From the NCBI GenBank assembly GCA_028288025.1, contig JAQBOM010000010.1, positions 1 to 64,000 of the forward strand: 64,000 nucleotides of DNA. The letters run 5' to 3'. Below are positions 48,201-64,000 of this stretch, piece after piece. Positions within the stretch are counted from its first letter, which is position 1. Every line of letters starts with the position of its first letter. The notes under the pieces are model-generated. The model saw only the letters and a program-made list of their open reading frames with translations, had not been told where the DNA came from and ran no database searches. Source of the DNA: Mucilaginibacter sp. (GTDB lineage: Bacteria; Bacteroidota; Bacteroidia; Sphingobacteriales; Sphingobacteriaceae). The translations under genes and the position numbers were made by a program.

Positions 48201-48530
48201 GTTTTGAACGTTAAGCGCCGCTATCTGCACATTAGTGCCGATGTTAAATGTTACCCTTACGCCTACACCACCACTGCTTGTACTGGTGCTTTGCATATAC
48301 TCCATGCCCGGTGTGCCATTTATTTGTTCTTCAACGGGGATAGCAACGGTTTGCTCTACTGTTTGAGCATCGGCGCCGGTATAACCGCCGTTAACGGAAA
48401 CACTTGGCGGCGTAATATTGGGGTATTGATCGACAGCAAGATTAAAAAGGCAAATCAAGCCCGATATCACTAAAATCAATGATATAACAATTGCGGTGAC
48501 GGGCCTTTTTATAAATGTATTTGCAATCAT
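45255..48530 (-). CDS. RND efflux permease, HAE1 type (second of two)
   Basis: Inner-membrane proton-driven pump of the AcrB/MexB type. The 1091-aa length is slightly longer than AcrB, with a charged C-terminal tail. The proton-relay residues are present: D409-D410 in GIVVDDAIIVVE and K947 in GLSAKNAILIVEF. The N-terminal signature is FIKRPVTAIVIS, and two large periplasmic loops are intact. Its ATG overlaps the stop of the preceding permease by 1 nt (TAATG), so both are translated from one message. Confidence 0.95.
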   Translation of the reverse strand: MIANTFIKRPVTAIVISLILVISGLICLFNLAVDQYPNITPPSVSVNGGYTGADAQTVEQTVAIPVEEQINGTPGMEYMQSTSTSSGGVGVRVTFNIGTNVQIAALNVQNRVGIAKPILPAVVSRLGLTVRASNPDQLMLISIYSPKRTHGITFLDNYTNTFIEDAILRVPGVGDVSARTDNFSMRIWMDPDKMASYSLTPADVVAALNAQNVYVAAGSVGAPPQAPTQTHETGILVNSMLNKPAQYENIIVKTIPSTGHFIYLKDVARVELGKFTFSSNSFTDGNRCSTLQVFQSPGSNALQTADNVYAALARLKKSFPADVDYIVPFESVTIITVSMQEVLGTLLKALGLVALVVFLFLQNWRSTIIPILAIPVSILATFCFFIPLGFTINTLTMFGFVLAIGIVVDDAIIVVEAVQHYIDEQHMSPKEATYHAMKEISAPVVAIALILASVFVPVGFIPGIVGRLYQQFAITIAISVIFSAFVALSLTPALCTLLLRPSHHENAKSNWFDKFFSWFNRGFDRITHGYSNGVKKSIKNSKYVVIILVCICAGAYMLFQSKPSGFVPPEDGGRLIITYQLPDASATAQSVSVMEKLMKIVGSTPGILHYSAASGFNVLNGGASSNSGSIFCMLTPWDQRTTPATRVQGIMDAIKKRAAKAGIKNANVVTIQPPPIRGIGLAAGFAMQIEQGSSTDNLQTFEKVVKKFVAAAQKNPATSTAFSYFTTHTPSFELNVDREKCEKLGINISDVFSTMQAYMGSLFVNNFTLYNRTYHVVVQADTGYRALVSNMNKYYVRNSKGQMLPLSAVISYKPTVAAPLISHFNIFRSAEVDGSIPPGYSSGQSLAGLKALAATELPRGYTYEFSGLSYEEIKAGSITIYIFLFSIIFVFLFLAALYESWSVPFSVMLTVPVSAFGAIVALTIAPTITNNVYAQIGLITLIGLSAKNAILIVEFAKLRVDRGEELVQSTLDAVRLRLRPIIMTSLSFIFGVLPLVLATGAGAESRNTIGVTVLGGMIASSTISIFIVPVLFVLFTRLSYGKKELDWLQANHENLMEKERRIEEQNIDPELEYDIAEAHVANKADRARHGH

Positions 48531-51500
48531 TACTGATCGGATTTACTTAACTCACGCGATTTTTGTATCTCGTATTCCAGTTCAGGGTCGATATTTTGGG
48601 CTTCAACTTTTTTGGCCTTTTCCATCAGGGCCTCGTGATGCGCTTTGAGGTAATCAAGACGTTTTTTACCATACGAAAGACGCGTGATGACTACATACAG
48701 CACCGGCACGATAAATATCGCTATCGACGAAGCTGCAAGCATACCGCCGAGCACGGTTAAACCTATTGTCCTCCGTGCTACGGCGCCCGCACCTGTCGCG
48801 AAAACTAGCGGGAGAACACCCAATATAAATGCCATTGACGTCATGATGATCGGTCGCAAACGCAGGCTCACCGCATCGAGGGTCGATTTGATAAGCTCTT
48901 CTCCCCTGTCGACCCGCACTTTGGCGAATTCAACTATCAGGATGGCATTTTTAGCGGCAAGGCCTATTAATGTGATCAACCCGATCTGCGCATAAACGTT
49001 GTCGGTAAGGCTTGGCACCAGGAACAGCGCCAGTATCGCACCGAACGCCCCGACAGGTACGGCAAGCAGTACCGAGAACGGCACCGACCAGCTTTCATAC
49101 AACGCTGCCAGGAACAGGAAGACGAACGTGATCGAAAACAGGAATATATAAAACGTAGTTGAGCCGGCTTTGATTTCCTCGTAGCTTAGTCCCGAAAACT
49201 CGAAAGTATAACCCTGCGGCAAAGTTTTGGTGGCCAGGTCCTGCAATGCAGTTAACGCCTCGCTGCTGCTAACGCCAGGCGCGGGCGACCCATCTATCTC
49301 GGCAGTCCGGAATATATTGAAATGCGAGATAACGGGCGCGGCCTCAGTAGGCTTATAGCTGATGAGCGTACCCAATGGCACCATGTTACCTGCCTGGTTG
49401 CGCACATAGTATTTATCGATATCGGAGACCAGTTTCCTGTAGGCAGTATCTGCCTGCACAACAACATGGAATGTCCGGTTATAAGTGGTAAAGTCGTTGA
49501 TATATAAACTGCCCATATAAGCCTGTATGGTTGTAAACACATCCGCCACATTTACGCCCAGTTTTTCACACTTTTCACGGTCAACAGTTAAATTATAATT
49601 CGGTGTATGTGCAGTAAAAAAGGTGTAGGCTTTGGTAATAACCGGGTTTTTATTGGCTTCGGTAATAAAGTTATTTACAACTTTTTCAAACGCATGAATA
49701 TCGTCGTTGGTGCTGCGCTGTTCAATCTGCAAACTAAAACCAACGGTAGTACCTACCCCCGGCAACGGTGACGGCTGTATCACCTGCACGTTGGCATCCT
49801 TAACACCGGCATCAGCAATGCGTTGCTGCAGCACTTTTATAATGCCTGGTACCTGCTGCTCTGTAGTGCTGCGCTCATCCCATGGGGCAAGCTGGCAATA
49901 TATTGTGCCATTGTTAGAGTTGCTGGCGTTGGTTACCACATTCAATCCCGACAAAGCGGCATAATGTGCCACTCCCGGCGTAGAGCCGATAACTTTCATC
50001 AGCTTATCCATTACCTGCACGGAAGCAGCGGTTGATGATGCTGGCGGCAACTGGTAGGTAACATACAGGTTCCCGTCGTCTTCCGATGGGATAAACCCCG
50101 TCGGTTTGTGCGCAAATAAAAACCAGGTGCCAATGCAGATACAGATCAATATAATGATGACCAGCCGCGAAGCCTTGATGCTCTTTTTAACACCTTCGGT
50201 ATAATTTGCGGTTACTCTGTCGAACCAATCGTTAAATTTGGTGAACCATTTGGTTATGCCTTTATGCTTTTTCGATTCGTCAGTCGGCTTTAACATTAGC
50301 GAACATAAAGCCGGTGTTAATGATAGGGCGATAAATGCCGAAATGATAACAGATATAGCAATGGTAATAGCAAATTGCTGGTACAAACGGCCGACTATGC
50401 CGGGTATAAAACCCACCGGCACAAACACCGCCGCAAGAATAAGTGCGATAGCCACAACCGGTGCAGAAATATCTTTCATGGCATGGTATGTAGCCTCTTT
50501 GGGCGACATCTTTTCATGATCGATATAATGTTGCGTTGCCTCAACCACGATAATGGCATCATCTACCACAATACCAATGGCCAACACAAAGCCGAACATG
50601 GTCAACGTATTTATGGTGAAGCCTAAGGGGATGAAAAAGCAAAATGTACCGAATATAGATACGGGGATGGCAAGAACCGGGATAAGCGTTGATCGCCAGG
50701 TTTGCAAAAACACGAATACCACTACCGCCACCAGCGCTAATGTTTTTAATAACGTTCCGACAACGTCCTGCATCGAAACCTTTACCACGGTAACCGATTC
50801 AAAGGGAACACTGTATTCTACGTCCGATGGAAACGTTTGCTTTAATTTGGCGAGGGCGGCATACACGCCGCTTGCTGTTTGCAGCGCATTGCTACCGGGC
50901 GCCTGGTAAATTTGCAGGTATGATGCCCGGTGACCGTCAACAAACGAATTGCTTGAAAAGGTAAATTTCCCCAGCTCAACACGTGCCACATCCCTGAGGT
51001 AAACCAGTTCGCCTGTGGTTGGGTTGTTTTTAACAATAATATTTTCAAATTCCGATGTCTTATTTAACCTGCCGTTTACAAGGATACCTAACTCATACGT
51101 CTGGTTTGATGCCTGCGGGGGCACCCCGGCGGTACCGGCAGCTACCTGTACGTTTTGTGAATTAAGCGCGGTTATGACATCCGAAGGCGTTAAACTGTAG
51201 GACGCCATCTTTTCCGGGTTCATCCATATCCGCATACTGAAATCGTCGGTAAACCTGTTTATGCTGCCCACACCCGGTACACGAAGCAGCGCATCCTGGA
51301 TAAAAATGTTGGTGTAATTGTCGAGGAAGGTGATGTTATGGCTATCCTTTGGCGCAAAGATGGCTACCATCATCAGCATGCTCGGGTTTACCGCACGAAC
51401 GGTAAGCCCCAACCGGCTTACCACTGCAGGCAGCAAAGGGCTTGCTATGCTTACCCGGTTTTGTACGTCCAGCGCGGCGACGTCAATGTTAGTTCCTATC

Positions 51501-51787
51501 TTGAAGGTAACATTCAAAGTCATCAACCCGTTGTTGGTGCTGTTGCTTTGCATGTACTCCATGCCCGGTGTGCCGTTTACCTGGCTTTCAACGGGCGTGG
51601 CTACGGTTTGCTCAACGGTTTGCGCATCGGCCCCGGTAAACTGCCCGTTTACCTGTACCACCGGGGGTGTAATGTCCGGGTATTGATCGACAGGTAAAAG
51701 CAGTATGGCCACCGTGCCGGTAATAACCAGTACAATAGATATCACGATAGCCGTTACCGGCCTTTTAATAAAGGTATTCGCAATCAT
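48530..51787 (-). CDS. RND efflux permease, HAE1 type (first of two)
   Basis: Paralogue of the next permease, similar along nearly its whole length (1085 aa). It keeps D409-D410 (GIVVDDAIIVVEATQ) and K946 (GLAAKNAILIVEF), so it should be active in its own right. Periplasmic porter-domain sequences diverge most between the two. A repeat-bearing spacer of 87 bp separates it from the adaptor gene. Substrate unknown: drugs, bile-like compounds or solvents are typical. Confidence 0.95.
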   Translation of the reverse strand: MIANTFIKRPVTAIVISIVLVITGTVAILLLPVDQYPDITPPVVQVNGQFTGADAQTVEQTVATPVESQVNGTPGMEYMQSNSTNNGLMTLNVTFKIGTNIDVAALDVQNRVSIASPLLPAVVSRLGLTVRAVNPSMLMMVAIFAPKDSHNITFLDNYTNIFIQDALLRVPGVGSINRFTDDFSMRIWMNPEKMASYSLTPSDVITALNSQNVQVAAGTAGVPPQASNQTYELGILVNGRLNKTSEFENIIVKNNPTTGELVYLRDVARVELGKFTFSSNSFVDGHRASYLQIYQAPGSNALQTASGVYAALAKLKQTFPSDVEYSVPFESVTVVKVSMQDVVGTLLKTLALVAVVVFVFLQTWRSTLIPVLAIPVSIFGTFCFFIPLGFTINTLTMFGFVLAIGIVVDDAIIVVEATQHYIDHEKMSPKEATYHAMKDISAPVVAIALILAAVFVPVGFIPGIVGRLYQQFAITIAISVIISAFIALSLTPALCSLMLKPTDESKKHKGITKWFTKFNDWFDRVTANYTEGVKKSIKASRLVIIILICICIGTWFLFAHKPTGFIPSEDDGNLYVTYQLPPASSTAASVQVMDKLMKVIGSTPGVAHYAALSGLNVVTNASNSNNGTIYCQLAPWDERSTTEQQVPGIIKVLQQRIADAGVKDANVQVIQPSPLPGVGTTVGFSLQIEQRSTNDDIHAFEKVVNNFITEANKNPVITKAYTFFTAHTPNYNLTVDREKCEKLGVNVADVFTTIQAYMGSLYINDFTTYNRTFHVVVQADTAYRKLVSDIDKYYVRNQAGNMVPLGTLISYKPTEAAPVISHFNIFRTAEIDGSPAPGVSSSEALTALQDLATKTLPQGYTFEFSGLSYEEIKAGSTTFYIFLFSITFVFLFLAALYESWSVPFSVLLAVPVGAFGAILALFLVPSLTDNVYAQIGLITLIGLAAKNAILIVEFAKVRVDRGEELIKSTLDAVSLRLRPIIMTSMAFILGVLPLVFATGAGAVARRTIGLTVLGGMLAASSIAIFIVPVLYVVITRLSYGKKRLDYLKAHHEALMEKAKKVEAQNIDPELEYEIQKSRELSKSDQ

Positions 51788-51822
51788 ATATTACTCATCG
51801 TCTAAATGCAGTTGTTTAAAGC

Positions 51823-51879
51823 CGAAAGTCTGATTCGTAGTTTTACTGATGACTTAAGACTTTCGACTTAAGACTTACC
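51823..51879. repeat. CGAAAGTCT / AGACTTTCG and GACTTAAGAC words
   Basis: CGAAAGTCT (51823-51831) and AGACTTTCG (51857-51865) are perfect inverted copies. GACTTAAGAC (51851-51860) and GACTTAAGACTTAC (51865-51878) overlap the adaptor stop codon. This is the same family as the spacer at 22388-22462. Confidence 0.6.
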
Positions 51880-53077
51880 TGCCGCGCTTGCCACCGCCGC
51901 CCGGACCTACTTTATTGGCGGTAGTAATTTGCGAGCCATCATGCAGTGATTGAATACCATCAATCACTATCCTGTCGCCGGCATTTATCCCGCTTTTTAT
52001 AATCTGGTTAGGCCCAATCGTTTGTCCTACCTGCACCTTTTTTTCTACTACAATAAGCTCTTTTTTGTGCCGCCCGGTATCTGTTTGGGCCTTGGGGTTG
52101 TTGATTACCGTATCTTTCGCCACAAACACAAAGTACTCGCCCATTTGTTCCACAACCGCTTTGCCCGGAACCACCAATTGCGGGCCTACATCCTGGTTGT
52201 GCACACGTACCACACAACTCATCCCAACTCTTAAAACTCCTTTTGGATTATCAAACACGAGCCTTACTCTTATTGAACCGGTTTGAGCATCAACAGCCCG
52301 GTCAATCACGGCTATCCGCCCTGTATATGGGTATAACGTATTATCCGGCATTAAAATAGTGAACAGCGAGTCGACCACATGCTGTTTGCTATTTTGCAAT
52401 TGCTCAAATTTGGGCAGTTGTTTTTCGTTAACGATAAAGTCGACAGCCATCGGGTTATCGGTTGATATGGTAGTTAGTATTGTCGAACCCGGGTTTACCA
52501 CGTCGCCAAGCTTTACCATGCTGAAACCGATAGTTCCGCCAAACGGCGCATAAACAATTGAATAATTCAAATTGGTCCGGGCCGTTTTCACCATCTGTGC
52601 CGAGGCTTGAACTGTGTTTTTAGCATTGTCGAGTGTCACTACGGCGTGATCATAAAGCTGTTTAGCTACGGCATTATACTTATTCAGGTAGGCATACCTG
52701 TCGGCGTCCTGCTGCGCCTGCGCCAGGTTACCTTGCGATACCTTTAAATTAGCAACCGCCTGGTCATAACTAGCCTGGTAAAGGCGCATGTCTATTTCGT
52801 ATAATTTTTGCCCTTTTTCAACGTGCGTTCCCTCTTTAAAATATATAGCAGTAATTGCCCCGGTTATTTGCGGCAGCAGGTTAACCTGGCTCAATGCAGC
52901 CGTCGTTGACGGGTATTTATCATAATATAAAACCGACCGCGGAGTTATTTTCAACAAGTTGACAGGCACTTCCATGTTTGGCGGTGGCTGCTTTTTTTTA
53001 CAGCCCGCAATAATGAGGCAACTGATAAGAAGGGCGCTTGATATTGCTCTATTCATAGAGGATATTTTACTAATCAT
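51875..53077 (-). CDS. RND periplasmic adaptor (membrane fusion protein, HlyD family)
   Basis: The 400-aa lipoprotein has a signal ending in CLIIAGC (Cys about 26). A barrel-sandwich/lipoyl domain follows (about 60-110 and 185-215, ITGAITAIYFKEGTHVEKGQKLYEID), with an alpha-hairpin between the halves and a beta-barrel and membrane-proximal domain after. It links the inner-membrane pump to TolC. The ATG at 53077 overlaps the TolC stop (TAATG); a second ATG at 53056 is also possible. Confidence 0.93.
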   Translation of the reverse strand: MISKISSMNRAISSALLISCLIIAGCKKKQPPPNMEVPVNLLKITPRSVLYYDKYPSTTAALSQVNLLPQITGAITAIYFKEGTHVEKGQKLYEIDMRLYQASYDQAVANLKVSQGNLAQAQQDADRYAYLNKYNAVAKQLYDHAVVTLDNAKNTVQASAQMVKTARTNLNYSIVYAPFGGTIGFSMVKLGDVVNPGSTILTTISTDNPMAVDFIVNEKQLPKFEQLQNSKQHVVDSLFTILMPDNTLYPYTGRIAVIDRAVDAQTGSIRVRLVFDNPKGVLRVGMSCVVRVHNQDVGPQLVVPGKAVVEQMGEYFVFVAKDTVINNPKAQTDTGRHKKELIVVEKKVQVGQTIGPNQIIKSGINAGDRIVIDGIQSLHDGSQITTANKVGPGGGGKRGR

Positions 53078-54504
53078 TAATATGAAATATTTCCCATAGC
53101 CTTTTCGAGGTCTATTTTGTATGATAACACCTGGAACAAGGCATTTAAATAGCTTATTTCGGATGTCATAAGGTTCGATTCTGCCGTGATGACATTCAGG
53201 TATGGCACTATTCCCTGCCGGTATTGCAAGGTTACAACGAAATAAACCCGCTGGGCCATGGACACATTTTTTTGCAGCAGCTGCAGGTTAAAATAATTGC
53301 TTTTATAATTGGCCAGTGCACTGGTATACTGGGTATATATCTGCGATTTTAGATCAGTTTCGTCCCAATCCAGGATCTTTTGCTGCAACTTAGCCCTGCG
53401 GAGGCTGTTGGTTCGTGAAAAACCCGTAAAAATCGGAATACTGAACTGCAGGCCTACATATGAGCTTGCAAAGGAGCTTCCAAAAAGATTGCTCAGATTA
53501 TTGTTATCAAACTCCCGGTTATAGTTATAAAAAGCAGATACGGTAGGTAAAAAAGAGTACTTATAATAATTAACCAGCTGCGTTTGCAAGCCCTTGCTAT
53601 TTATGATCTGCTGGTACTCGATACGGCGTTCATATTGCAATTGCTGGTTGGTATCAATATGAATGCTTTTCATCATCTCCAAAGTATCAAAAACCACGTT
53701 AAACTGCTGTTCGGGCGGGAAACCCATCAGTTGTTTTAGCGTAGCATATTGCGGCACAACATTTTCAGTAGCCATCTTTAATTGGCCGATGGAGTTATTC
53801 AGCGTTATCGTGGCCTGCTCATAATCGGTTTCGTCCACAATGCCGCCTTTGTATTGATAGTACGCATCGCGGACACTTTTACCGAGCCGTGCCGTATCTT
53901 CTTTAAAAACATTGATCTGCTCCAATGTAAGCAGCAGATTGTAGAATGATTTGCTGACCGACGAAACCAGGAATATTTTGGTACTGTCCGAAGCCTGCTG
54001 CGCTTGTTTAACATAGTATGGCGCGCTTTTGAAAGCATATAGCAAGCTCGGGGTAAATATCGACTGTGTAACCGCAATACCCGGTATAAATGTATTGGCA
54101 ATGCCTACACCCTTTAAAGAGTTTGATGTTGTGTTTACAGAGCTATTACCGGGCTGATAGTAATGTACCAGCCTGCCGGCCGAGCTTACCTGCGGCAGCG
54201 CAGTGGATAAATTGATGGCATTGGTTATTCTGGCAATGTTGATGCCTATCAGCGAACGATTTAGGGCAGGCTGATGTAGTATGGCATAGTCAATACATTG
54301 CTGCAAGGTCAAATACTGGGCGGTATTACTGGAATCCTTTATGGTAACCGGTATTAATAAATTGTGTTTGCTGGTATCGGGAGCGACGAGCGGCGGAGAC
54401 ACACCGGTTGTTTTTTGTTTTTGCGCAAATGCTGTTAACTCAAAAAGCAAACCAATTGTAAATAAACAAATACGGATGAGCCGGTTAAAAAAAATACTTG
54501 CCAT
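53077..54504 (-). CDS. TolC family outer-membrane efflux channel
   Basis: Trimeric exit duct of the RND pump. From the ATG at 54504 the protein has 475 aa, with a signal peptide (MASIFFNRLIRICLF, ending TAFAQ). The paired OEP repeats contain long helices, for example the YLTLQQCIDYAILHQPALNRS start and the C-terminal YRQGIVPYLNVITAESNL. A longer frame to 54543 exists, but its first codons are hydrophilic and do not fit a signal. It is the first gene of the operon TolC-adaptor-permease-permease. Confidence 0.93.
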   Translation of the reverse strand: MASIFFNRLIRICLFTIGLLFELTAFAQKQKTTGVSPPLVAPDTSKHNLLIPVTIKDSSNTAQYLTLQQCIDYAILHQPALNRSLIGINIARITNAINLSTALPQVSSAGRLVHYYQPGNSSVNTTSNSLKGVGIANTFIPGIAVTQSIFTPSLLYAFKSAPYYVKQAQQASDSTKIFLVSSVSKSFYNLLLTLEQINVFKEDTARLGKSVRDAYYQYKGGIVDETDYEQATITLNNSIGQLKMATENVVPQYATLKQLMGFPPEQQFNVVFDTLEMMKSIHIDTNQQLQYERRIEYQQIINSKGLQTQLVNYYKYSFLPTVSAFYNYNREFDNNNLSNLFGSSFASSYVGLQFSIPIFTGFSRTNSLRRAKLQQKILDWDETDLKSQIYTQYTSALANYKSNYFNLQLLQKNVSMAQRVYFVVTLQYRQGIVPYLNVITAESNLMTSEISYLNALFQVLSYKIDLEKAMGNISY

Positions 54505-54639
54505 ATTAAAACCGCTAACTGGCATTTTTAAACAATATCCCATAAAATATTCCGCAACAGGATAACAGTCAATAATATCACTACCTGCTGATGCCCTGAA
54601 GTGTTTTGTAAAAGTGTAAAAAACATTGCAATACTACCA

Positions 54640-54680
54640 GTAACAATATTATGAATGAATTACTGCATCAATATTGTTAC
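54640..54680. promoter_or_regulatory. 11-bp inverted repeat upstream of the RND operon
   Basis: GTAACAATATT (54640-54650) and AATATTGTTAC (54670-54680) are perfect inverted copies with a 19-nt gap. The right arm overlaps the stop codon of the cytochrome b gene. It lies about 136 bp upstream of the tolC ATG, so it could be an operator or the terminator of the upstream gene. No regulator gene is next to it. Confidence 0.5.
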
Positions 54681-55285
54681 CTATCGGTCAATGTTTTTTT
54701 TCGGTTTTTCCGCTTGCTATAATTATACTTTACCCGTAAAAAGGTCGCTGCAATTAACACCAACAGGCAGGCTTCACAGAGTAATTTTTCTCCGTCAAGC
54801 CAGTCGGTTAGCCTGTCTTTTAGCCCGGGGTCCATCATCAACCCATGAATAATAAAAAGCATGGCCGTACCGTACGATATCAAATGGATATTTTTCCAAA
54901 GCCTGAACGACATTTTTTTCTTTATTACCTTTTGCGTTGTAATGATCACGGTGATCAGCGCATACATGGCCAGAGTTCCCAGCGTCACAAAAAAGGCTTG
55001 TTTCGGCGCGTGAAACGGCAAGAAAACATCCAGAAAAGTAAACTTTGTACTGGCATCAAGCACCAACAATAAAGGGTGCAGCAGCACTAATGTTAATGCA
55101 AGGTATGCCGTCCAGTTATGCAGCCATAAAATATCGATCTTTTTAACAGCACCCGGCAGTTTCTTCCACCGGGCGCTGGTTTTGTAGGCTGTACTTAACA
55201 ACATGCCTAATAATACATTTATGGTTAGCGTTACCATGGCGCAAAGGCCAATAACCGCCGAAACATCTAATAATTTAAGTTCCAT
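54677..55285 (-). CDS. Ferric-reductase-like transmembrane cytochrome b
   Basis: The 202-aa protein has about five to six transmembrane helices. Four His residues lie in pairs: H56 and H70 (LHNWTAYLALTLVLLH), and H134 and H147 (IHLISYGTAMLFIIH). The 13-14 residue spacing is that of the two-heme ferric-reductase-like (FRE/NOX) domain. No FAD- or NAD-binding domain is attached, so electrons must come from another protein. It is 21 bp downstream of the first sortilin-like gene and likely in the same operon. Confidence 0.8.
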   Translation of the reverse strand: MELKLLDVSAVIGLCAMVTLTINVLLGMLLSTAYKTSARWKKLPGAVKKIDILWLHNWTAYLALTLVLLHPLLLVLDASTKFTFLDVFLPFHAPKQAFFVTLGTLAMYALITVIITTQKVIKKKMSFRLWKNIHLISYGTAMLFIIHGLMMDPGLKDRLTDWLDGEKLLCEACLLVLIAATFLRVKYNYSKRKNRKKTLTDR

Positions 55286-55306
55286 TATTTACTGCAAGCG
55301 GGGTAT

Positions 55307-58300
55307 TTATTCCTTAATGCCGATGGTTGGAACCTGCTTAGCCAGGATCAGTTTATTTAACGCCGGTATATCCTCCGATTTTATTTTTTTTAACTTATCC
55401 AACTGTATATCGCTCGCGACGGCTAACTCAGCAAAGGTTTCCTTTGCCTGTTTGCTCGGTAAGGTTTCGCCGCTTGATACCACGCCATATACACCCGACA
55501 ATTTATCATTTAAACGTATAGGGAAGTTGAGCGGATCCTGCCCGCTTTTTGATTTGGTTTGATAAAGCGCCTCTTCAACCGCGGTAAGTTTTTTATTAAT
55601 GGAATCCGCCATCGTTTTGATATCCTTTGTGCCTGATTTACCCATCCGCGAAGTAAAATCGTTGATCTGCATTCTCAGCGCGCGGATATCCTTAATTGCT
55701 TTTTGCAGTTCGTTAAACTTGTCACGTATCTGCAGCAAAAATCCAACCTGTGCATCATAATCAGCCTCAGTCATCTTATAATTCGGGTTCGGTTTGATCA
55801 CGAACGGAACATCGGTCGAGTCTTTCTCAAACCTGAAACGCGCCGTATATTTTCCCGGGGCCGCTTTAACGCTGCCAACACCGCCGGTCCATAAAATGAG
55901 GCCTTCTATTGTTTCGCCCGGCGGGTACAGCATATCCCATACAAACTGGTTCATGCCCGGGTTAAAATCAATTTTATCTGTTGTTTCTTTCGCTTTCCTG
56001 CTGAATGTTCTGATCGGTTTGTTCTGTTTGTCAAAGATGGTTATGGATACTTTCGACGAGTCGGTAGCATTTTTTAAGTAGTAATTTATGACCACTCCGT
56101 TCGGCGGGTTAGCGCCGGCATTTTGTACCGCAGCCCGCCTGTTACGCCCCCTGCGGCCGCCGCCCTCAGCCCTATAGGCATCGTTTACCGCGAACACTTT
56201 GAGATTTTGTTCAGGCAGTTCATCAGCCTTTTGCTGGATCATGCTTAGATCATCAATAACATAAAAGGCACGGCCCTGGGTAGCTACCACTAGGTCGTTA
56301 TTTTTGATGGTGAGGTCGGTAATGGGCACTACCGGCAGGTTTAACTGGAATTTTTTCCAGCTTGCACCATCGTTATAACTAATATACATGCCATACTCCG
56401 TACCTGCATATAGCAAGCCGGGGCGTTTTTTGTCGGCACGCAAGGCTCTTGCAAAATGCATTTTATCAATCCCTGCTGTGATCAGTTTCCACGTGCTGCC
56501 ATAATCTTCCGTTTTGAAAATATAGGGCGTAAAATCATCCAGCTTATATTTTGTGCCTACGAAATAGGCGCTGCCTTTTTTAAACGGATCCGTTTCAACA
56601 CAATTCCACATCATCCATTTCCCGGCAGCCGGCGGCGTTACATTCTTCCAGTTTTTGCCAGCATCCCTGCTTACATAAATCAACCCGTCATCACTGCCTG
56701 TCCATAAAAGGTCTTTTTCTATTGCTGATTCGGCGGCGGTAAAAATGGTACAATAGTATTCGACCGAGGTATTGTCCTTGGTAATGGGCCCGCCGCTTGA
56801 AACTTGTTTTGTTTTATCATTGGTTGTCAGATCCGGGCTGATCACTTCCCAGCTCTGGCCTTCGTTCTCGGTAACAAACAAATGATTGCCGGCAGTATAT
56901 AAACGTTTGGGATTGTTTGGTGAGAAAAATATAGGGAAGTTCCATTGGAAACGATACTTCAGCACATCCGCACCTGCACCCGTCGGGTTATCGGGCCACA
57001 CGTTTATCGCCCTGTTTTCGCCGGTTTTATGGTCAAGCCGGGATAAGTAACCATCGTAATTACCTCCATACACAACGTCCGGGTTTAACGGGTCGGGTAC
57101 TATGTAACCGCTTTCGGCCCCGGCTGTCGGTTCCCAGTCGGCTTCGGTTATACCCGCGCTGCCCGACCTGCTTTTTATCCGTACCGAAGTATTATCCTGC
57201 TGTGCACCCAGTATGCGATATGGGTGCGAATTATCGGTTGTTACCCTGTAAAACTGGGCAGTAGGCTGGTTATTGAGTTGGCTCCATGAATTGGCCGCGT
57301 CGAAACTGATCTGCGCGCCGCCGTCGTCCGCAATGATCATCCGCTTGCCGTCAGCCGGATCTATCCAAAGATCGTGGTGGTCGCTGTGGGGTGTGGCAAC
57401 GCTTTTAAATGTTTTTCCGCCGTCAAGGCTGCGCATACATTCCACGTTAAGGCAGTAAACCAAATCCTCATTTTTGGGATCAACAAATACTTTATTGTAA
57501 TACCAGGCACGCTGGCGAATATTGCTGTCGCTGCTGGTTAAAACCCAGGTTTCGCCGCCATCCTCGCTCATAAATAAACCACCTTTGGCATTTTCAACCA
57601 GTGCATAAATTTTGTCAGTATTGCTTGCCGCCACTGCTACGCCGACTATGCCCCAGGTTCCGCCGGGTAAGCCTTTCTTTGCAGTTAGATTTTTCCAGGT
57701 TTCGCCGCCATCTGTGCTTTTGTATAAGCCGCTGCCTTCGCCGCCGCTATCCATACCGTAAGGTGTACGGCGCATACGCCACATACCTGCATATAAAACA
57801 GATGGGTTACCAGGCTCCATCACCAGATCGGAGCAGCCGGTATCGTTATTCACAAATAATATCTTTCTCCACGTTTTGCCGCCGTCAGTAGTTTTATATA
57901 CTCCCCGGTCGTTGTTTGGACCAAATAAATGGCCCATGGCAGCAACCCAAACGTTATTTGGATTTTGCGGATCAATAATAATACGGACAATATGCCGTGT
58001 TTCTTTCAGCCCCAAGTTCTTCCAGCTGCGGCCGCCGTCGTTGCTGCGCCATATCCCACCCAAACCTTCCGAAACGTTTCCGCGCAGGGTGTTTTCGCCC
58101 TCGCCGACATACAATACCGATTCATCGCCCGGCGCAACCGCAACCGCGCCGATGGTGCCACCAAAATACTTATCGGTGATGTTTTTCCAGTTCGCGCCGC
58201 CGTCGGTCGTTTTCCAAACGCCGCCGCCTGTAGCGCCGAAATAGAAAGTGTTTTTATCCTTATAACTGCCGGCTACAGCTCCGGTCCGGCCCCCGCGGAA

Positions 58301-58444
58301 AGGGCCAACCAGGCGGTATTTGGTCGTAGAGTAAAAGACAGAATCAGCAGTTGCCGATTCTTTAACAATTTTACTTTTCTTTTGCGCGACCGCGGAAGAG
58401 ATGATGAATAAAATCAGGATCGGAAGGAGGGTAAACTTTTTCAA
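55307..58444 (-). CDS. Exported sortilin/BNR-type beta-propeller protein (downstream copy)
   Basis: The 1045-aa protein starts with TTG at 58444, followed by a signal peptide ending AVAQ (about residue 21). It has many Asp-box/BNR motifs of the form SxDGGxxW, for example GGVWKTTDGGANW and GLYKSTDGGETW. This gives a VPS10/sortilin-like propeller (about 30-720). A C-terminal beta and helical region (about 750-1045) includes FEKDSTDVPFVIKPNPNY. Some homologues are annotated as glycosyl hydrolases, but no catalytic residues are obvious. No T9SS C-terminal sorting domain is visible. It is a paralogue of the preceding gene. Confidence 0.85.
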   Translation of the reverse strand: MKKFTLLPILILFIISSAVAQKKSKIVKESATADSVFYSTTKYRLVGPFRGGRTGAVAGSYKDKNTFYFGATGGGVWKTTDGGANWKNITDKYFGGTIGAVAVAPGDESVLYVGEGENTLRGNVSEGLGGIWRSNDGGRSWKNLGLKETRHIVRIIIDPQNPNNVWVAAMGHLFGPNNDRGVYKTTDGGKTWRKILFVNNDTGCSDLVMEPGNPSVLYAGMWRMRRTPYGMDSGGEGSGLYKSTDGGETWKNLTAKKGLPGGTWGIVGVAVAASNTDKIYALVENAKGGLFMSEDGGETWVLTSSDSNIRQRAWYYNKVFVDPKNEDLVYCLNVECMRSLDGGKTFKSVATPHSDHHDLWIDPADGKRMIIADDGGAQISFDAANSWSQLNNQPTAQFYRVTTDNSHPYRILGAQQDNTSVRIKSRSGSAGITEADWEPTAGAESGYIVPDPLNPDVVYGGNYDGYLSRLDHKTGENRAINVWPDNPTGAGADVLKYRFQWNFPIFFSPNNPKRLYTAGNHLFVTENEGQSWEVISPDLTTNDKTKQVSSGGPITKDNTSVEYYCTIFTAAESAIEKDLLWTGSDDGLIYVSRDAGKNWKNVTPPAAGKWMMWNCVETDPFKKGSAYFVGTKYKLDDFTPYIFKTEDYGSTWKLITAGIDKMHFARALRADKKRPGLLYAGTEYGMYISYNDGASWKKFQLNLPVVPITDLTIKNNDLVVATQGRAFYVIDDLSMIQQKADELPEQNLKVFAVNDAYRAEGGGRRGRNRRAAVQNAGANPPNGVVINYYLKNATDSSKVSITIFDKQNKPIRTFSRKAKETTDKIDFNPGMNQFVWDMLYPPGETIEGLILWTGGVGSVKAAPGKYTARFRFEKDSTDVPFVIKPNPNYKMTEADYDAQVGFLLQIRDKFNELQKAIKDIRALRMQINDFTSRMGKSGTKDIKTMADSINKKLTAVEEALYQTKSKSGQDPLNFPIRLNDKLSGVYGVVSSGETLPSKQAKETFAELAVASDIQLDKLKKIKSEDIPALNKLILAKQVPTIGIKE

Positions 58445-58470
58445 AGTGTTAAAATTAGGTGTGTGATCAA

Positions 58471-61400
58471 CTATAAATTTATTTTTTCGAGGTTGGAACT
58501 AACCAATTGTTCATTCAGCATTTTTAAACGATTACCGGTAAGGGCACTATATTTTGAATATAATTGGTTATAGGATATTTCAGTGGCTGCGACGGCTTTC
58601 ACAGTTTGGGTGGTCATCGGCATATCGCTTCCCTGCAACGAACCCATCAGGCCGGTTAAACTCCCTCTTAAGCTGCTTAAGCCTTCGGTTTTGCCTTGTC
58701 GGTTTCCTGCCAGCAGCCTGGTAATATCACCGTCAATAATTTTTAGGGTGTCAGCTAACGGGCCTCTTGCGGTGGGTATTAATTTCTTAACCTGTGCCTG
58801 GAATTTTTCGAGCTTTTCAGCGGCATTTAATATCGATTTTAATTCGGAGTAGCATTTATCAGACAGCACATATTGCTTTTGCAGCTCGATCGCCGGCGTT
58901 TTTACCCGTGGGTCCATTTTAATAGTCAACGGCTGTGTATAGGTTTTCCCGTCCACGGTTAATTTAACCGTATAAGTTCCGGGCAATACCCATGGGGATG
59001 TTGGCTCGGGCGCAGTCTGGCCGTATATAGCCGCTATTGGATAAGTTGCAGGCAGGTTAAGGGGTTGGGTATGCATATCCCATACAAAACGGTGCGCACC
59101 CTTAGCAGCGGATAAAATTTGCTGGGGCCTGATCCAGTACAGCGGAATATTTACCGGCGGGATAGAATAAGGCTTATCAACACTGGTGAATACTCGGATG
59201 GTTTTTCCTGAGGCATCCATTATTTCCAGTTTCACAACTGACGCGGCATCGTTATTCAAATAATAATCAATAATGGCCCCATCGGGCGGGTTTTGGCCTG
59301 CTGGCTCTTCCTGCGGCAATGGCGTATCGGTATTCATGTTCCAGCGTACCCGGTAGGCAAGACCTGTGCTATATAAGACAGTAGCAGCATGTTCTTTCGC
59401 CTTTGCGATGTTCCGGAGCGCCGTAATATCATCCAGTATCCAGAATGAACGGCCATGCGTACCGACAACCAGGTCGTTATCTTTAATAACCAGGTCGCGG
59501 ATGGATGTTGCCGGCATGTTTAACCGCAGTGGCTGCCAGTTATCGCCGTCATTAAAAGAAACATATACGGCAGTTTCGGTTCCGGCAAACAGCAAACCTT
59601 TACAATAAGGGTCTTCTTTTACAGAATTGACCGGATCGGTTGGTAAACCAGCCACAATTTTTTTCCAGGTTTTACCGCCATCGTGTGTTCGATAAATGTA
59701 GGGGTTCATATCGTCGAGACGTATTTTGTTCACCGCCGCATACGCAGTCATATCATCAAAATGGCCCGCATCAATGATGGATATCTTATTCCACGATGTA
59801 ATCTCTGCCGGGGTGATGTTTTTCCAGGTCTTCCCGCCGTCCGCAGTTCGTTGTATTAAACCATCGTCCGTTCCGATCCAGATCGTATTTATATTTTTGG
59901 CCGATGGCGCTACGGTATAAATCACCCCGCGCTGTGGCATCTTAGCTAAGTCGCTCGTGTTGTAAACACCGACGCTTGCGGGAATATCCCAGGTAGTTCG
60001 GGTAAGGTCGGGACTGATGATGTCCCACGAATTTCCTCCTGTTGTTGTTTTAAACAGCACGTTCCCGGCGTAGTAAAGGCATTTTGGGTCGACCGGCGAA
60101 AAAAGGACCGGCGCCGTCCGGATAAAGCGATAAGTTCCACCTCTTCGGGTGGTTTCCGGCGAAATATTTTGGACTTGCCCGGTGAGTTTATTAAACTTTG
60201 ATATCTTTCCGCCGTAAATGATGTTGGGATCAAGCGGATCGGCGGCCACATAGCCATATTCCTCCGCGCCTACCGGGTGCCATTCCCTGAAGGTAATCTG
60301 TCCGTCGTTTCCGCGACTGGCAATACCTACCGAACCACTCTCCTGCTGCCCGCCATACACATTGTAAGGAAAAGCATTATCCGCGCTCACGTGGTAAAAT
60401 TGCGCAGTCGGCTGGTTATACCACGAGCTCCATGTTTCGCCGCCGTTAACAGAGATCTCCGCGCCCTGATCGCTGCAAAGCAAAATAATTTCCGGGTGAT
60501 CGGGATTGAACCACAATCGGTGATAATCGTCGCCGCCCGGTGCGCCCCGGAAAGCTTTCCAGCTTTTACCGGCATCGGTCGACTTCCAGGTAACTACATT
60601 GGCAATATAAACGATATCGGCATTTTTAGGATCGACTTTGCATTCGGCAAAATCACTGCCTCTGTCCCATAAGCGCTGGTCGATATTCTCCTGGTTCCAT
60701 GATTCGCCGCCATCATCTGATTTATAAACGCCGCCGCCTTTTGTCGCATCCACGCAGGCGTACATTCGCTTTGGGTTGCTTGGCGCGAGACTAAAACCGA
60801 TACGGCCCAGGCCGTCGGCAAAGGTCGGCAGGCCTTTGGTTAATTTTTTCCAGGTCGTTCCCCCATCGGTTGATTTGAACAGTCCGCTTTCCGGGCCCTG
60901 CCATGCGCCATTTTCCCAGGGGCCCTGCCTGCCTGCCCATAAATCGGCATAAATAATGTCTGAATTTTTAGGGTCGATCATCACTTGTATCGCACCCGTA
61001 TTTTCATCTTTATACAATACTTTTTCCCAGGTTTTACCGCCATTGGTTGTGCGGTAAACGCCCCTCTCGGTATTCGGCCCGTAAGGATGTCCTAAAGCGG
61101 CAACAAAAACTTTGTTTTCATCCTTTGGGTCGATTGCTATGCCGCCAATTTGCTGCGCGTCCTTTAAACCGGTATTGACCCATGTTTTACCGGCGTCGAT
61201 CGATTTATACATACCATTCCCGACCGAAAGATCGGGCCTTTGCAACCCTTCCCCGCTGCCGGCATAAATCACATCCGGGTTGGATGGCGCAACAGCAACA
61301 TCACCTATTGAACCGGTTGACTGGTCATCAAAGACGGGCTTCCAGGTGCGGCCGAAATCATTTGTTTTCCAAACCCCGCCGTTGTTTACACCCATGTAAA

Positions 61401-61581
61401 AAACATTGGGTTGCTGCGGAACACCCGCGGCCCCTACCGTTCTCCCTCCGCGATGCGGACCAATCATGCGCCATTGGAGCATGTTATATGCGCCAGGATC
61501 GACAGTTTGTGCGCCGGCCGGAATTGAAAACAAAACCAATACAGCGTATAAAAAACCGTTTATAGTTAATGACTTGTTCAT
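58471..61581 (-). CDS. Exported sortilin/BNR-type beta-propeller protein (upstream copy)
   Basis: The 1036-aa protein has an ATG start and a signal peptide ending PAGAQ (about residue 25). Its propeller has the same BNR pattern as the next gene (GGVWKTNDFGRTW, SGLFKSTDGGTTW and others), followed by an Ig-like and helical C-terminus. The two proteins align in domain order with conserved motifs (YNQPTAQFYHVSADN against NNQPTAQFYRVTTDN), so they are old duplicates. Only 26 bp separate them. Substrate or ligand unknown. Confidence 0.85.
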   Translation of the reverse strand: MNKSLTINGFLYAVLVLFSIPAGAQTVDPGAYNMLQWRMIGPHRGGRTVGAAGVPQQPNVFYMGVNNGGVWKTNDFGRTWKPVFDDQSTGSIGDVAVAPSNPDVIYAGSGEGLQRPDLSVGNGMYKSIDAGKTWVNTGLKDAQQIGGIAIDPKDENKVFVAALGHPYGPNTERGVYRTTNGGKTWEKVLYKDENTGAIQVMIDPKNSDIIYADLWAGRQGPWENGAWQGPESGLFKSTDGGTTWKKLTKGLPTFADGLGRIGFSLAPSNPKRMYACVDATKGGGVYKSDDGGESWNQENIDQRLWDRGSDFAECKVDPKNADIVYIANVVTWKSTDAGKSWKAFRGAPGGDDYHRLWFNPDHPEIILLCSDQGAEISVNGGETWSSWYNQPTAQFYHVSADNAFPYNVYGGQQESGSVGIASRGNDGQITFREWHPVGAEEYGYVAADPLDPNIIYGGKISKFNKLTGQVQNISPETTRRGGTYRFIRTAPVLFSPVDPKCLYYAGNVLFKTTTGGNSWDIISPDLTRTTWDIPASVGVYNTSDLAKMPQRGVIYTVAPSAKNINTIWIGTDDGLIQRTADGGKTWKNITPAEITSWNKISIIDAGHFDDMTAYAAVNKIRLDDMNPYIYRTHDGGKTWKKIVAGLPTDPVNSVKEDPYCKGLLFAGTETAVYVSFNDGDNWQPLRLNMPATSIRDLVIKDNDLVVGTHGRSFWILDDITALRNIAKAKEHAATVLYSTGLAYRVRWNMNTDTPLPQEEPAGQNPPDGAIIDYYLNNDAASVVKLEIMDASGKTIRVFTSVDKPYSIPPVNIPLYWIRPQQILSAAKGAHRFVWDMHTQPLNLPATYPIAAIYGQTAPEPTSPWVLPGTYTVKLTVDGKTYTQPLTIKMDPRVKTPAIELQKQYVLSDKCYSELKSILNAAEKLEKFQAQVKKLIPTARGPLADTLKIIDGDITRLLAGNRQGKTEGLSSLRGSLTGLMGSLQGSDMPMTTQTVKAVAATEISYNQLYSKYSALTGNRLKMLNEQLVSSNLEKINL

Positions 61582-61664
61582 AATTAAATGTCCGATTTAA
61601 TGATATACTAGTAATAGAAGTGCATTAATACTTTAAAAATGTTAAATTAATAAGAAGTTGTAAA

Positions 61665-64000
61665 TTATGACTTATTTCCTGAATTAAAATCTAAGGGGAT
61701 CAACACTTTAAAACTTATATTCCTGCCCATATTAAATACCCCAACCCTGCCAGTTGTATAATTTACCGGGTAATATTTAAAGCGGCTCATGTAATCGATA
61801 TAAGCGGTGTTGAACAGGTTATTGCAGATGAGATATATTTCGCAAACCTTTTTCCCTTTTGAATAAATATCACTGCCGGCGCCAACATTAAATAAGGTAT
61901 AGCCCCTGGTGGCCGCTTTGCTTGCCGCATATTCGTAGGGGGTTAATGCTGTGTTCAAGCCATTGTAGATAGCATACTGCTGGTAAACATTTTTCTGTTG
62001 GAATGCACTAAGCAAGCCTGCCTTAATATAAACGTTTTTTAAGATTTTTCCTAATTCAGGAACGTGAAATTTGAGGTCGGCCGTAACCCGTGCCGGCGGT
62101 ACAAAGGGCAAATATTTAGCAGAATCGGCCGAATGCAGCAGGCCGCCGTACACCATGCCCAGGGTTGAGTTTAGTTCCCAATGCGGCAAATTAACCGGGT
62201 GGATGGTAAAGGCGATTTCGCCACCATATAATTGAGCCTGCCCTTGTGTATACTTATAAACGGGCGCCGCGCCTAAACCGACCGCGTTGAGCGAATTGTT
62301 TATCGAATCGGCGCCTGCTGTGGTTTTTAAACCGCGGGCATATATAAAATCGTTTACCCGGTTGTTAAACATATTCACTTCCAGGTCAATATCTTTTGAA
62401 TTTATACCGAAGGAAAGGTCTTCTTCCAGGCTTGTTTCGGGTTTGAGGGTTGGGTCGCCGATCTCGTAAACCACCGTGCCATCATGTACGCCATTGGCAG
62501 CGGCTTCGGCTACGTTTGGCGCGCGCCATCCGCGTGCTATATTGGCTTTCACATACATGTTTTTGGTAAGATCGTAGGTTCCTCCAAAACTGAACGACAT
62601 CCCGCTAAAGCGGGTAATAAAGCCCTTAAACTCATGAATGGCATTCAGAGCAAAGGGGGCAGCCGGCGCCTGGTTTGTTGAATCGACCCAATGGTCGATG
62701 CCATTAAATGTACGGGTATCATACCTGATGCCGCCGCTTAGGTTAAGCTTGCCTAATTTTTTGTTGGCGATGGCAAAACCGCCTATTTCAAAAAAATTAT
62801 AATCGGGTATAAGCAGCAACGTTCCCAGGCTTTTTGAATTTTGGTAAACTCCATTGGCGCCTGTCGAAAAATTGAACCCATTAACCTGCGGCGAAACATA
62901 GCGCACATCATAGGTTGCGGCGTTTGATAAGTAATAAATATCAGCTGTGTTGGGGATTGTCGCATCGTTGTTTTCACGCCGTTGATTTTTTTGCCATGAA
63001 AATATTCCTTTTACGCGGCCATCGCCCATGGCTATACTATTATCCCAAACAATTTTGGTGTGTTGTATCTGCTGGTTAATAACAAATGGCGTATAACCCG
63101 TTTGCTCCTGGCGCGTTGGCAAAACATAGGTGGGCGCACCGCCATTCAGGCCCGTGTAGGCAACCAACCGCTCCATTTGCCCGTTTACGGAATCCCTCGT
63201 ACCGTCCACAATGCCGGTGCGCATATCGAAATAACCGACATGCAATTGTGTATATCCCCATTTGCGATGCAGGCCTATCGTACCGTCGATGTTAAAATTG
63301 CTGAATTGCGAGTTCAGCACATATCCGTCATTTGGGTTCTGATAGGCGTGCGCCATGGTATTATCTATCCTTGCGCTCCACGAGATTCCATTTTTGGTGC
63401 CTGCCATGTGCAGCATATTGTTGATCAGTCCATTATTGGTTTGATAATTGAAAAGTATCGTCCCTTTTACCTGGCCCTCCGGAAGCGGCTGTTCGGGAAT
63501 AAGATTCACCACACCGGCGATAGCGTCGGAACCAAATGCCAGGGATGCCGGGCCCTTTAAAATTTCGTACCTGTTTACCGCATTAGCGTCGGCTTCTATG
63601 CCAAATTCGTCAAACCAGGCCTGGTCAACCTGCTGCACACCGTCATTTATCGTTAGTACACGATTGTATCCCAAACCCCGTATTACAGGCTTCGAAATAC
63701 TTTGCCCGCCCGTCATTGCGGAAACGCCCGGTACTTTTGCAATGGCATCAATAACATTGGTTGATGAGTTTGGTAATAAATCCGTAGCCTCCATGGTGGC
63801 AATGGCGTACGGTGTGTGTTTCTTTTCTGTAGCATTGATAACGCCCGTAACCACTACCTCTTTTAACTGGTTAACCGCAGGCTCAAGCACATAATCTTTT
63901 TGAACAACACCTTTAAAAACGATAGTTTCAATTTTGGCAGCATAGCCGGCAGCGCTAACTTCTACCACATAAGTACCCCGCGGGATGTTTTTTATGGTGT
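61665..64000 (-). CDS. TonB-dependent receptor, N-terminus cut by the right window edge
   Basis: The frame is open from the right edge to a stop at 61665, about 778 codons. The first residues visible (TIKNIPRGTYVVEVSAAGY) belong to a carboxypeptidase-regulatory-like domain. A TonB plug follows (LKEVVVTGVINATEKK, VIDAIAKVPGVSAMTGGQSISKPVIRG, read in parts), and a 22-strand-type barrel fills the rest. A GTG at 63968 is not the start, since the domain continues upstream. The 83-bp spacer to the sortilin-like gene suggests one transcript. Ligand unknown; there is no SusD. Confidence 0.9.
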   Translation of the reverse strand, partial: TIKNIPRGTYVVEVSAAGYAAKIETIVFKGVVQKDYVLEPAVNQLKEVVVTGVINATEKKHTPYAIATMEATDLLPNSSTNVIDAIAKVPGVSAMTGGQSISKPVIRGLGYNRVLTINDGVQQVDQAWFDEFGIEADANAVNRYEILKGPASLAFGSDAIAGVVNLIPEQPLPEGQVKGTILFNYQTNNGLINNMLHMAGTKNGISWSARIDNTMAHAYQNPNDGYVLNSQFSNFNIDGTIGLHRKWGYTQLHVGYFDMRTGIVDGTRDSVNGQMERLVAYTGLNGGAPTYVLPTRQEQTGYTPFVINQQIQHTKIVWDNSIAMGDGRVKGIFSWQKNQRRENNDATIPNTADIYYLSNAATYDVRYVSPQVNGFNFSTGANGVYQNSKSLGTLLLIPDYNFFEIGGFAIANKKLGKLNLSGGIRYDTRTFNGIDHWVDSTNQAPAAPFALNAIHEFKGFITRFSGMSFSFGGTYDLTKNMYVKANIARGWRAPNVAEAAANGVHDGTVVYEIGDPTLKPETSLEEDLSFGINSKDIDLEVNMFNNRVNDFIYARGLKTTAGADSINNSLNAVGLGAAPVYKYTQGQAQLYGGEIAFTIHPVNLPHWELNSTLGMVYGGLLHSADSAKYLPFVPPARVTADLKFHVPELGKILKNVYIKAGLLSAFQQKNVYQQYAIYNGLNTALTPYEYAASKAATRGYTLFNVGAGSDIYSKGKKVCEIYLICNNLFNTAYIDYMSRFKYYPVNYTTGRVGVFNMGRNISFKVLIPLDFNSGNKS

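Follow-up and report, generated by a model that had tools for sequence, protein, structure and literature searches.

A possible metal-chelate uptake module of a TonB-dependent receptor, two exported propellers and a ferric-reductase-like cytochrome in Mucilaginibacter sp.

In the present study, we analyzed positions 1 to 64,000 of contig JAQBOM010000010.1 (GCA_028288025.1) of Mucilaginibacter sp., a member of Sphingobacteriaceae; this whole stretch is called the window. Four leftward genes at its end encode a TonB-dependent receptor (TBDR), two exported propellers (BNR1 and BNR2), and a Ferric_reduct cytochrome (CYB). We give an even chance to the reading that these genes form a metal-chelate uptake module with periplasmic reduction. 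G and L numbers denote the genomes and loci that were compared.

Proposed role of the four genes

TBDR would import a chelate across the outer membrane, and siderophore-bound iron or heme is our first guess for it. BNR1 and BNR2 would then bind the chelate on its arrival in the periplasm, presenting it to CYB through a presumed propeller-CYB contact. The putative electron donor of CYB is an NAD(P)H-flavoprotein in the cytoplasm. The electrons would cross two predicted stacked hemes, the first held by His56/His134 on the cytoplasmic side and the second by His70/His147 on the periplasmic side, and CYB would reduce the metal, leading to its release for import. We regard CYB as a candidate periplasmic reductase for chelate uptake because it is fused to NAD(P)H domains or to an exported propeller in relatives and because it ends receptor-ABC rows.

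BNR1 and BNR2 carry signal peptides without a lipobox, and the propeller fused to CYB in G851 is predicted to be extracytoplasmic and on the CYB side; the site at which the ligand is held is thus probably the periplasm and not the cell surface. The initial annotation envisaged an uptake system in which propellers capture a ligand that is reduced at the inner membrane. The recurrence of the grouping, the fusion, and an import row described below favor this idea, and the proposed site of capture has been shifted to the periplasm.

Recurrence of the neighborhood

Flanking regions were surveyed for 22 CYB genes from 20 genomes or metagenome-assembled genome (MAG) contigs; some flanks were short (129 bp on one side in L006; 2.1 kb in L042). 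CYB was scored as linked when an ortholog of BNR1 or BNR2 lay no more than three open reading frames (ORFs) away, with at least one on the same strand. Ten of the 22 CYB genes, from seven genera, were linked (the window, G967, G803, G813, G906, G928, G907, G912, G847, and G851), and the BNR orthologs outside the window were 64–78% identical. All four genes were clustered in five genomes, representing four genera (the window, G813, G906, G912, and G851), with TBDR identities of 41–69% outside the window. These adjacency counts include the same-genus pairs G813/G906, G847/G928, and G967/G803. TBDR also adjoined BNR1 without CYB in G101, G897, and G978, the last with a BNR2-like paralog (44%) in between.

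CYB is rare around the window: counting the window genome each time, it was found in 2 of 121 genomes of the same family, 4 of 400 of the order, and 3 of 395 of the class. In the family of G702 (hereafter, the second family), it was present in 13 of 195 genomes. We infer that this family is Chitinophagaceae, since the gene order of the Chitinophagaceae MAG contigs L006 and L007 matches that of L054 and L073. Orthologs of BNR1 (E ≤1e-280) were detected in 38 of the 195 genomes, and those of BNR2 (E ≤1e-100, paralogs included) in 73. BNR1 accompanied CYB in 11 of the 13 CYB genomes versus 27 of the 182 others (Fisher p 2.4e-7), and BNR2, again with paralogs, in all 13 versus 60 of 182 (p 1.4e-6); both tests ignore relatedness.

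Within the family of the window, BNR1 and BNR2 each matched 12 of 121 genomes at E ≤1e-100, the window included. BNR1 orthologs (76–77%) were present in G014 and G101 and BNR2 orthologs (65–66%) in six other genomes; no other genome of this family had both, and the full four-gene set was found in 0 of the 120 other genomes sampled. The initial annotation had named the absence of a conserved neighborhood in relatives as a refuting result. That result was obtained in the window's family, whereas in the second family CYB was located within three genes of BNR1 or BNR2 in 9 of the 13 CYB-bearing genomes. An accidental, unique cluster was the first impression from the window's family, order, and class and two MAG contigs, and was overturned by the search of the second family.

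Fusion and import-row loci

In G851, BNR1, BNR2, a CYB-propeller fusion, a small unannotated protein, and TBDR (69% identical) are encoded on one strand. The fusion protein (1238 aa) exceeds the cut-offs of two Pfam models, Ferric_reduct and Sortilin-Vps10. Its CYB part is followed by residues rich in Lys/Arg, a hydrophobic signal-like stretch with cysteines, and the propeller. Since the Lys/Arg-rich stretch and the signal-like segment separate the two halves, the fused propeller should be outside the cytoplasm.

In G847 and G928, a small protein, a TBDR, a binding protein, a FecCD permease, an ABC ATPase, and CYB are encoded in this order on one strand, with CYB 7 or 28 bp past the ATPase gene. 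BNR1-BNR2 and a third propeller adjoin this import row. The row was annotated with Pfam and NCBIfam in G847 and by BLAST to G847 in G928. The ATPase scored 254.4 bits against a heme ABC model (cut-off 261), and the permease and binding protein scored best with B12 models.

In G948, a small Cys-containing protein, HvfB (MNIO maturase; 388.8 bits, cut-off 360), HvfC (145.1 bits, cut-off 142), and a DoxX-like gene, a ribosomally synthesized and post-translationally modified peptide (RiPP) group, are located shortly before BNR1-BNR2 (L085:5450-7862). We take HvfB/HvfC groups to be linked to copper. A redox-active peptide, one of the ligands initially suggested, has this neighborhood of a single relative as its sole support. 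Genes ahead of a CYB fusion in G394 encode an HMA-like protein (22.9 bits, cut-off 24.8) and a receptor with a plug domain.

Phylogeny of the components

In their respective trees, CYB (100/96), BNR2 (99), and BNR1 (98) of the window are sister to their G907 counterparts. The trees of BNR1, BNR2, and the receptor were quick trees without bootstrap; the value for the sister position of BNR1 is SH-aLRT support, and only the C-terminal part represented BNR2 of G907. One G907 contig ends with BNR1, 26 bp, and the start of BNR2, and another begins with the end of BNR2, 11 bp, and CYB; we infer that these ends abut, which would give the same order as in the window. Because all three genes are sister to those of G907 despite the different families of the two genomes, the simplest reading, although not beyond doubt, is that BNR1-BNR2-CYB may have moved as one unit. 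In the receptor tree, the window TBDR grouped with receptors of its own genus (97).

The propeller-linked state did not form one clade in the CYB tree (5 changes, 3 of them forced by starred branches). Therefore, the linkage does not go back to one inherited accident, although losses could explain part of this pattern. In the BNR1 tree, the CYB-linked label was barely more clustered than in shuffles (as low in 52 of 500).

CYB

Ferric_reduct was the sole Pfam match of CYB (38 bits, cut-off 28), and Pfam detected no C-terminal FAD or NAD(P)H domain in the 202-aa window protein. The initial annotation described a cytochrome with four well-placed histidines, and His56, His70, His134, and His147 were indeed retained in all 21 aligned CYB sequences. 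A fifth, His92, was not conserved among them. The heme histidines of human NOX2 are His-101/115 and His-209/222, and the spacings of 14 and 13 are equal in NOX2 and CYB (PMC3591440).

According to PMC3591440, most short bacterial forms of the ferric reductase domain (FRD) have no more than two or three of these histidines, and the small number that retain the full set adjoin long forms in its tree. This position fits CYB, given its long relatives. We found four of these, one in G075, one in G354, and two in G394, with frames of 555–576 aa; Pfam scans of two of them (L005 and L056) showed extra FAD, NAD, and 2Fe-2S domains. The four long relatives formed one clade (99/96), which was joined with the window CYB in a weaker group (83/87).

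CYB has five hydropathy peaks and five long helices in a model built from five sequences (mean predicted local distance difference test [pLDDT] score 68). Across 21 sequences, Lys/Arg residues averaged 4.9 in loop 1, 5.5 in loop 3, and 4.4 at the C terminus, versus 1.7 in loop 2 and 2.0 in loop 4. These charges predict an N-out, C-in topology, which places the His70/His147 heme on the periplasmic side. Cytochrome b561, STEAP2/1/4, Dcytb, and SpNOX led the structural comparison and NOX5 followed soon after, with VIA-align Z values of ~13, a range in which the tool warns about helical bundles. Foldseek returned nothing at E ≤0.001 with the CYB model; STEAP1 was first and NOX5 fourth in its list. 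A PDB sequence search with CYB alone gave no match up to E 1. The partners of CYB differ elsewhere: a CYB relative of G075 (L004:1495-2085) is located 24 bp past a gene resembling phosphatidylserine decarboxylase.

Propellers

Sortilin-Vps10 and BNR were above the Pfam cut-off in both BNR1 and BNR2. At E ≤0.001, only Sortilin-Vps10, BNR, PSII_BNR, and BNR_2 were listed, and DUF4374 was absent. The Sortilin-Vps10 match, although above the cut-off, covers partial stretches (at best 3–114 of 446 positions). A profile search matched SorCS2 (E 1.2e-6) and sortilin chains (E ~5e-5) more weakly than chains of glycoside hydrolase family 74 (GH74). Sortilin/VPS10 proteins have a single ten-bladed propeller with cysteine-rich modules. 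The N termini of BNR1 and BNR2 are, by eye, plain signal peptides without a lipobox cysteine. A type IX secretion system (T9SS) tail considered in BNR1 was rejected because of a score below the cut-off and its internal position.

The AlphaFold model of BNR2 (33 sequences; mean pLDDT 86.6) shows propeller strands to approximately residue 730, and the protein comprises two propellers, a beta domain (~784–884), and a C-terminal helical part (893–1035). The first 24 Foldseek matches were all GH74 enzymes, of which a xyloglucanase was the best (E 7e-26). The Foldseek match to 2cn3 (E 7e-26) covered 823 columns with a TM-score by target of 0.58, indicating tandem seven-bladed propellers by fold match rather than by blade count. 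Polar residues were invariant across BNR1, BNR2, and distant propellers (33 sequences), e.g., R312, D355, H357, Q416, and R498 of BNR2.

In many genomes of the second family (L087-L093, L100-L102), BNR2 orthologs stand in tandem with a different propeller (33–35% to BNR3, the fused propeller). These tandems often follow small exported 'TADEVVNKHIEAIGG'-type genes, and neither CYB nor the receptor is nearby.

Receptor

TBDR has the Pfam domains TonB_dep_Rec_b-barrel and Plug. It is cut by the window edge; on the contig the protein is whole, with 853 aa, and its gene extends to contig position 64226 (L002:1666-4227). Its best solved relatives by sequence were ZnuD, the colicin I receptor, and PhuR. 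The best-scoring models were heme/hemoglobin families, all far under their cut-offs, and three full-length relatives scored 136–156 bits against heme/hemoglobin models.

In many relatives, the receptor follows a small protein (163–195 aa) that has a hydrophobic stretch near its N terminus and contains a 'YDV' motif (L074:5370-5861, L083:12234-12773, L084:14455-15042, L094:15353-15853, and L105:7261-7797). Four of these proteins (L074, L083, L084, and L033) had no Pfam match and three had no NCBIfam match. By eye, none was seen before the window TBDR.

Comparison with known systems

XusABC of Bacteroides thetaiotaomicron comprises a receptor, the seven-bladed DUF4374 propeller and surface lipoprotein XusB, and the inner-membrane PepSY reductase XusC, encoded together, with a proposed role in xenosiderophore capture, import, and periplasmic reduction (PMC13142918). 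The window likewise groups genes for a TonB-dependent transporter, a propeller, and an inner-membrane reductase, with TBDR 83 bp before BNR1. However, its propellers, in contrast to XusB, are two in number, larger, each with two propeller domains, and free of a lipobox and DUF4374 (Pfam E ≤0.001), and CYB, unlike XusC, is an FRD cytochrome with Ferric_reduct only and no PepSY. Because its parts come from other families, the window set is not a member of Xus, but it may work in a similar manner. The initial statement that no system with this set had been described needs amending, since XusABC has the same layout built from other protein families (PMC13142918). The available part of PMC9331221, which concerns other heme receptors, makes no mention of a reductase or PepSY. 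Redox clusters with PF01794 and PepSY are described in PMC8238504, the available part of which contains no mention of propeller, sortilin, or VPS10.

CYB shares with short and long bFRE, STEAP, and NOX the Ferric_reduct domain, four histidines with the 14/13 spacing, the helical fold, and some relatives with a dehydrogenase. It differs from them by having apparently five rather than six helices, no dehydrogenase domain, and propeller partners. It also resembles MsrPQ (YedYZ), in which an FRD cytochrome and its soluble partner are products of separate genes. However, the partner in MsrPQ is a molybdoenzyme and that of CYB is a propeller, and CYB retains the first heme histidine. A YedZ/YedY complex has been named, and YedZ and STEAP have arginine in place of the first canonical histidine (PMC3591440); this trait of MsrQ/YedZ is absent from CYB, with His56 in all 21 sequences.

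The propellers are similar to GH74 xyloglucanases in having tandem propellers with BNR/Asp-box blades, and differ from them by an extra beta domain, a C-terminal helical part, and the replacement of one catalytic Asp. At the site with Asp in PDB 2cn2 and Ala in 2cn3, which we take to be a GH74 catalytic residue, the BNR profile has Thr. GH74 activity is thus unlikely.

Alternative explanations and points against the uptake module

Several observations weigh against an uptake module. No BNR1, BNR2, or TBDR neighbor was detected in the surveyed flanks of 12 of the 22 CYB genes (both in G075, both in G394, and those of G702, G565, G354, L006, L007, G872, G849, and G924). In many genomes, orthologs of BNR1 or BNR2 are apart from CYB and the receptor: eight BNR1 orthologs are solitary (L107, L113-L119), and G948 has BNR1-BNR2 without CYB. 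Receptor relatives of 50–53% (G795, G848, G855, and G890) and 68% (G803) have no adjoining propeller ortholog. Within the window's genus, G101 has TBDR-BNR1 (71 and 76%) with neither BNR2 nor CYB; G014 carries TBDR and BNR1 on separate contigs. The joint movement of the inner genes is also opposed by BNR1 itself, which is closer to G014 (77%) and G101 (76%) than to G907 (75%) and groups with G014 and G101 in a tree without G907. As for the ligand, the 777-aa part of TBDR was far under the heme cut-offs (TIGR01785, 146.3 versus 316.85 bits; TIGR01786, 161.2 versus 323.75). The plug Asp-His pair of ZnuD, presumably the zinc ligands, is Glu-Phe in the TBDR alignment, and the ZnuD model scored 73.1 against a cut-off of 950. 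In addition, the receptor of the G847/G928 row differs from the window TBDR (27–29% over ~250 residues). Since 12 of the 22 CYB genes are apart and the propellers are often alone or in the other tandem, the CYB-propeller link is a recurrent partnership and neither a fixed operon nor obligatory.

Four other explanations were considered. The propellers may act on a substrate located in the periplasm or envelope in a reaction powered by CYB, just as MsrQ provides the power for MsrP, with the receptor as a separate passenger. This would suit the particularly tight association of CYB with BNR1/BNR2, and with BNR3 by fusion, the lack of a receptor in the surveyed, partly short flanks of G967, G803, and G907, and the shared invariant polar residues of the propellers, which could line an active site. 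However, the Pfam matches of the propellers include no redox domain, CYB keeps the histidine that is arginine in YedZ/STEAP (PMC3591440), and it closes the import row in G847 and G928; we regard such an enzyme as rather unlikely. The GH74-dominated Foldseek matches of BNR2, together with a glycosylhydrolase-named model that scored best in NCBIfam for both propellers, although below its cut-off (148 and 154.3 versus 175 bits), would be in accordance with GH74-like propellers that digest a glycan imported by the receptor, CYB being incidental. We consider the utilization of a polysaccharide or glycoside improbable on account of the Thr at the 2cn2 Asp site, the lack of SusD or another glycosidase among the four genes in Pfam, and the failure to explain CYB.

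Import or handling of copper, with CYB as a cupric reductase, has a similarly low probability in our judgment. HvfB/HvfC before BNR1-BNR2 in G948, with its presumed copper link, and the HMA-like protein (below the cut-off) and plug-domain receptor ahead of the CYB fusion in G394 point to copper; however, each neighborhood was seen once, and the G847/G928 import row belongs to the FecCD type and scores best with heme, B12, and Fe-siderophore models. We assign very little probability to the idea that mobile accessory genes lacking a joint function came together by coincidence. It would account for the patchiness of CYB, BNR1, and BNR2, each of which also occurs alone and in combinations that vary among genomes, and for the clustering of the CYB-linked label near that of shuffles (52/500). 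Against coincidence are the adjacency in seven genera, the short gaps, the fusion, the sister relationship of the three inner genes to G907, and the dispersal of the linked state over the CYB tree, although losses could explain part of the last.

Returning to the uptake module, we tentatively extend it to a broader idea, which we hold to be possible but doubtful. Large BNR/VPS10-type propellers such as BNR1 and BNR2 in Bacteroidota may be substrate-presenting subunits of a transmembrane ferric-reductase cytochrome, fused to it in one lineage. Together with a TonB receptor, they would represent a second solution, parallel to XusABC and assembled independently, for releasing chelated metal by reduction in the periplasm. 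This kind of propeller is present in 73 of the 195 genomes sampled from one family, and the libraries used assign it no tested function. The fusion and the repeated adjacency to a four-His reductase, with a receptor or chelate importer, provide a testable role for it. If this idea is correct, the iron-piracy layout of receptor, propeller, and reductase has arisen more than once from unrelated components.

Gene layout and neighboring genes

The coordinates of the features are listed in Table 1. The initial annotation of a leftward four-gene locus with spacings of 83 bp (TBDR-BNR1), 26 bp (BNR1-BNR2), and 21 bp (BNR2-CYB) agreed with the ORF coordinates and Pfam. The terminator scan found no terminator-like site inside the three gaps. 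Promoter and terminator scans gave no excess over shuffles (19 versus a mean of 18.3 and 14 versus 13.3). A single transcript for the four genes is plausible.

Table 1. Features of the four-gene locus, with positions numbered along the window
Feature	Positions	Strand	Basis
TBDR, 3' 777 codons inside the window	61665-64000	-	ORF; Pfam barrel and plug
BNR1, exported propeller, 1036 aa, signal peptide ending ...PAGAQ by eye	58471-61581	-	ORF; Pfam; orthologs (75-77%) in G014, G101, and G907
Gap BNR1-BNR2, 26 bp, of equal length in G907 (L112:475-500)	58445-58470	-	Coordinates
BNR2, 1045 aa, TTG start	55307-58444	-	ORF; Pfam; AlphaFold; Foldseek
CYB, 202 aa	54677-55285	-	ORF; Pfam Ferric_reduct; hydropathy; model and fold comparison
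His56 of CYB, proposed cytoplasm-side heme ligand with His134	55118-55120	-	Invariant, 21/21
His70 of CYB, proposed periplasm-side heme ligand with His147	55076-55078	-	Invariant, 21/21
His134 of CYB	54884-54886	-	Invariant, 21/21
His147 of CYB	54845-54847	-	Invariant, 21/21

An RND efflux set (TolC, an adaptor, and two tandem pumps; 45255-54543 of the window, minus strand) begins 133 bp past CYB. This set is left out of the module. In G906 (L078:9765-15664), an apparent adaptor-RND-TolC set adjoins CYB on the upstream side. At the contig end upstream of TBDR (L002:4435-5193), a protein whose start is missing carries, by eye, a T9SS-type sorting tail.

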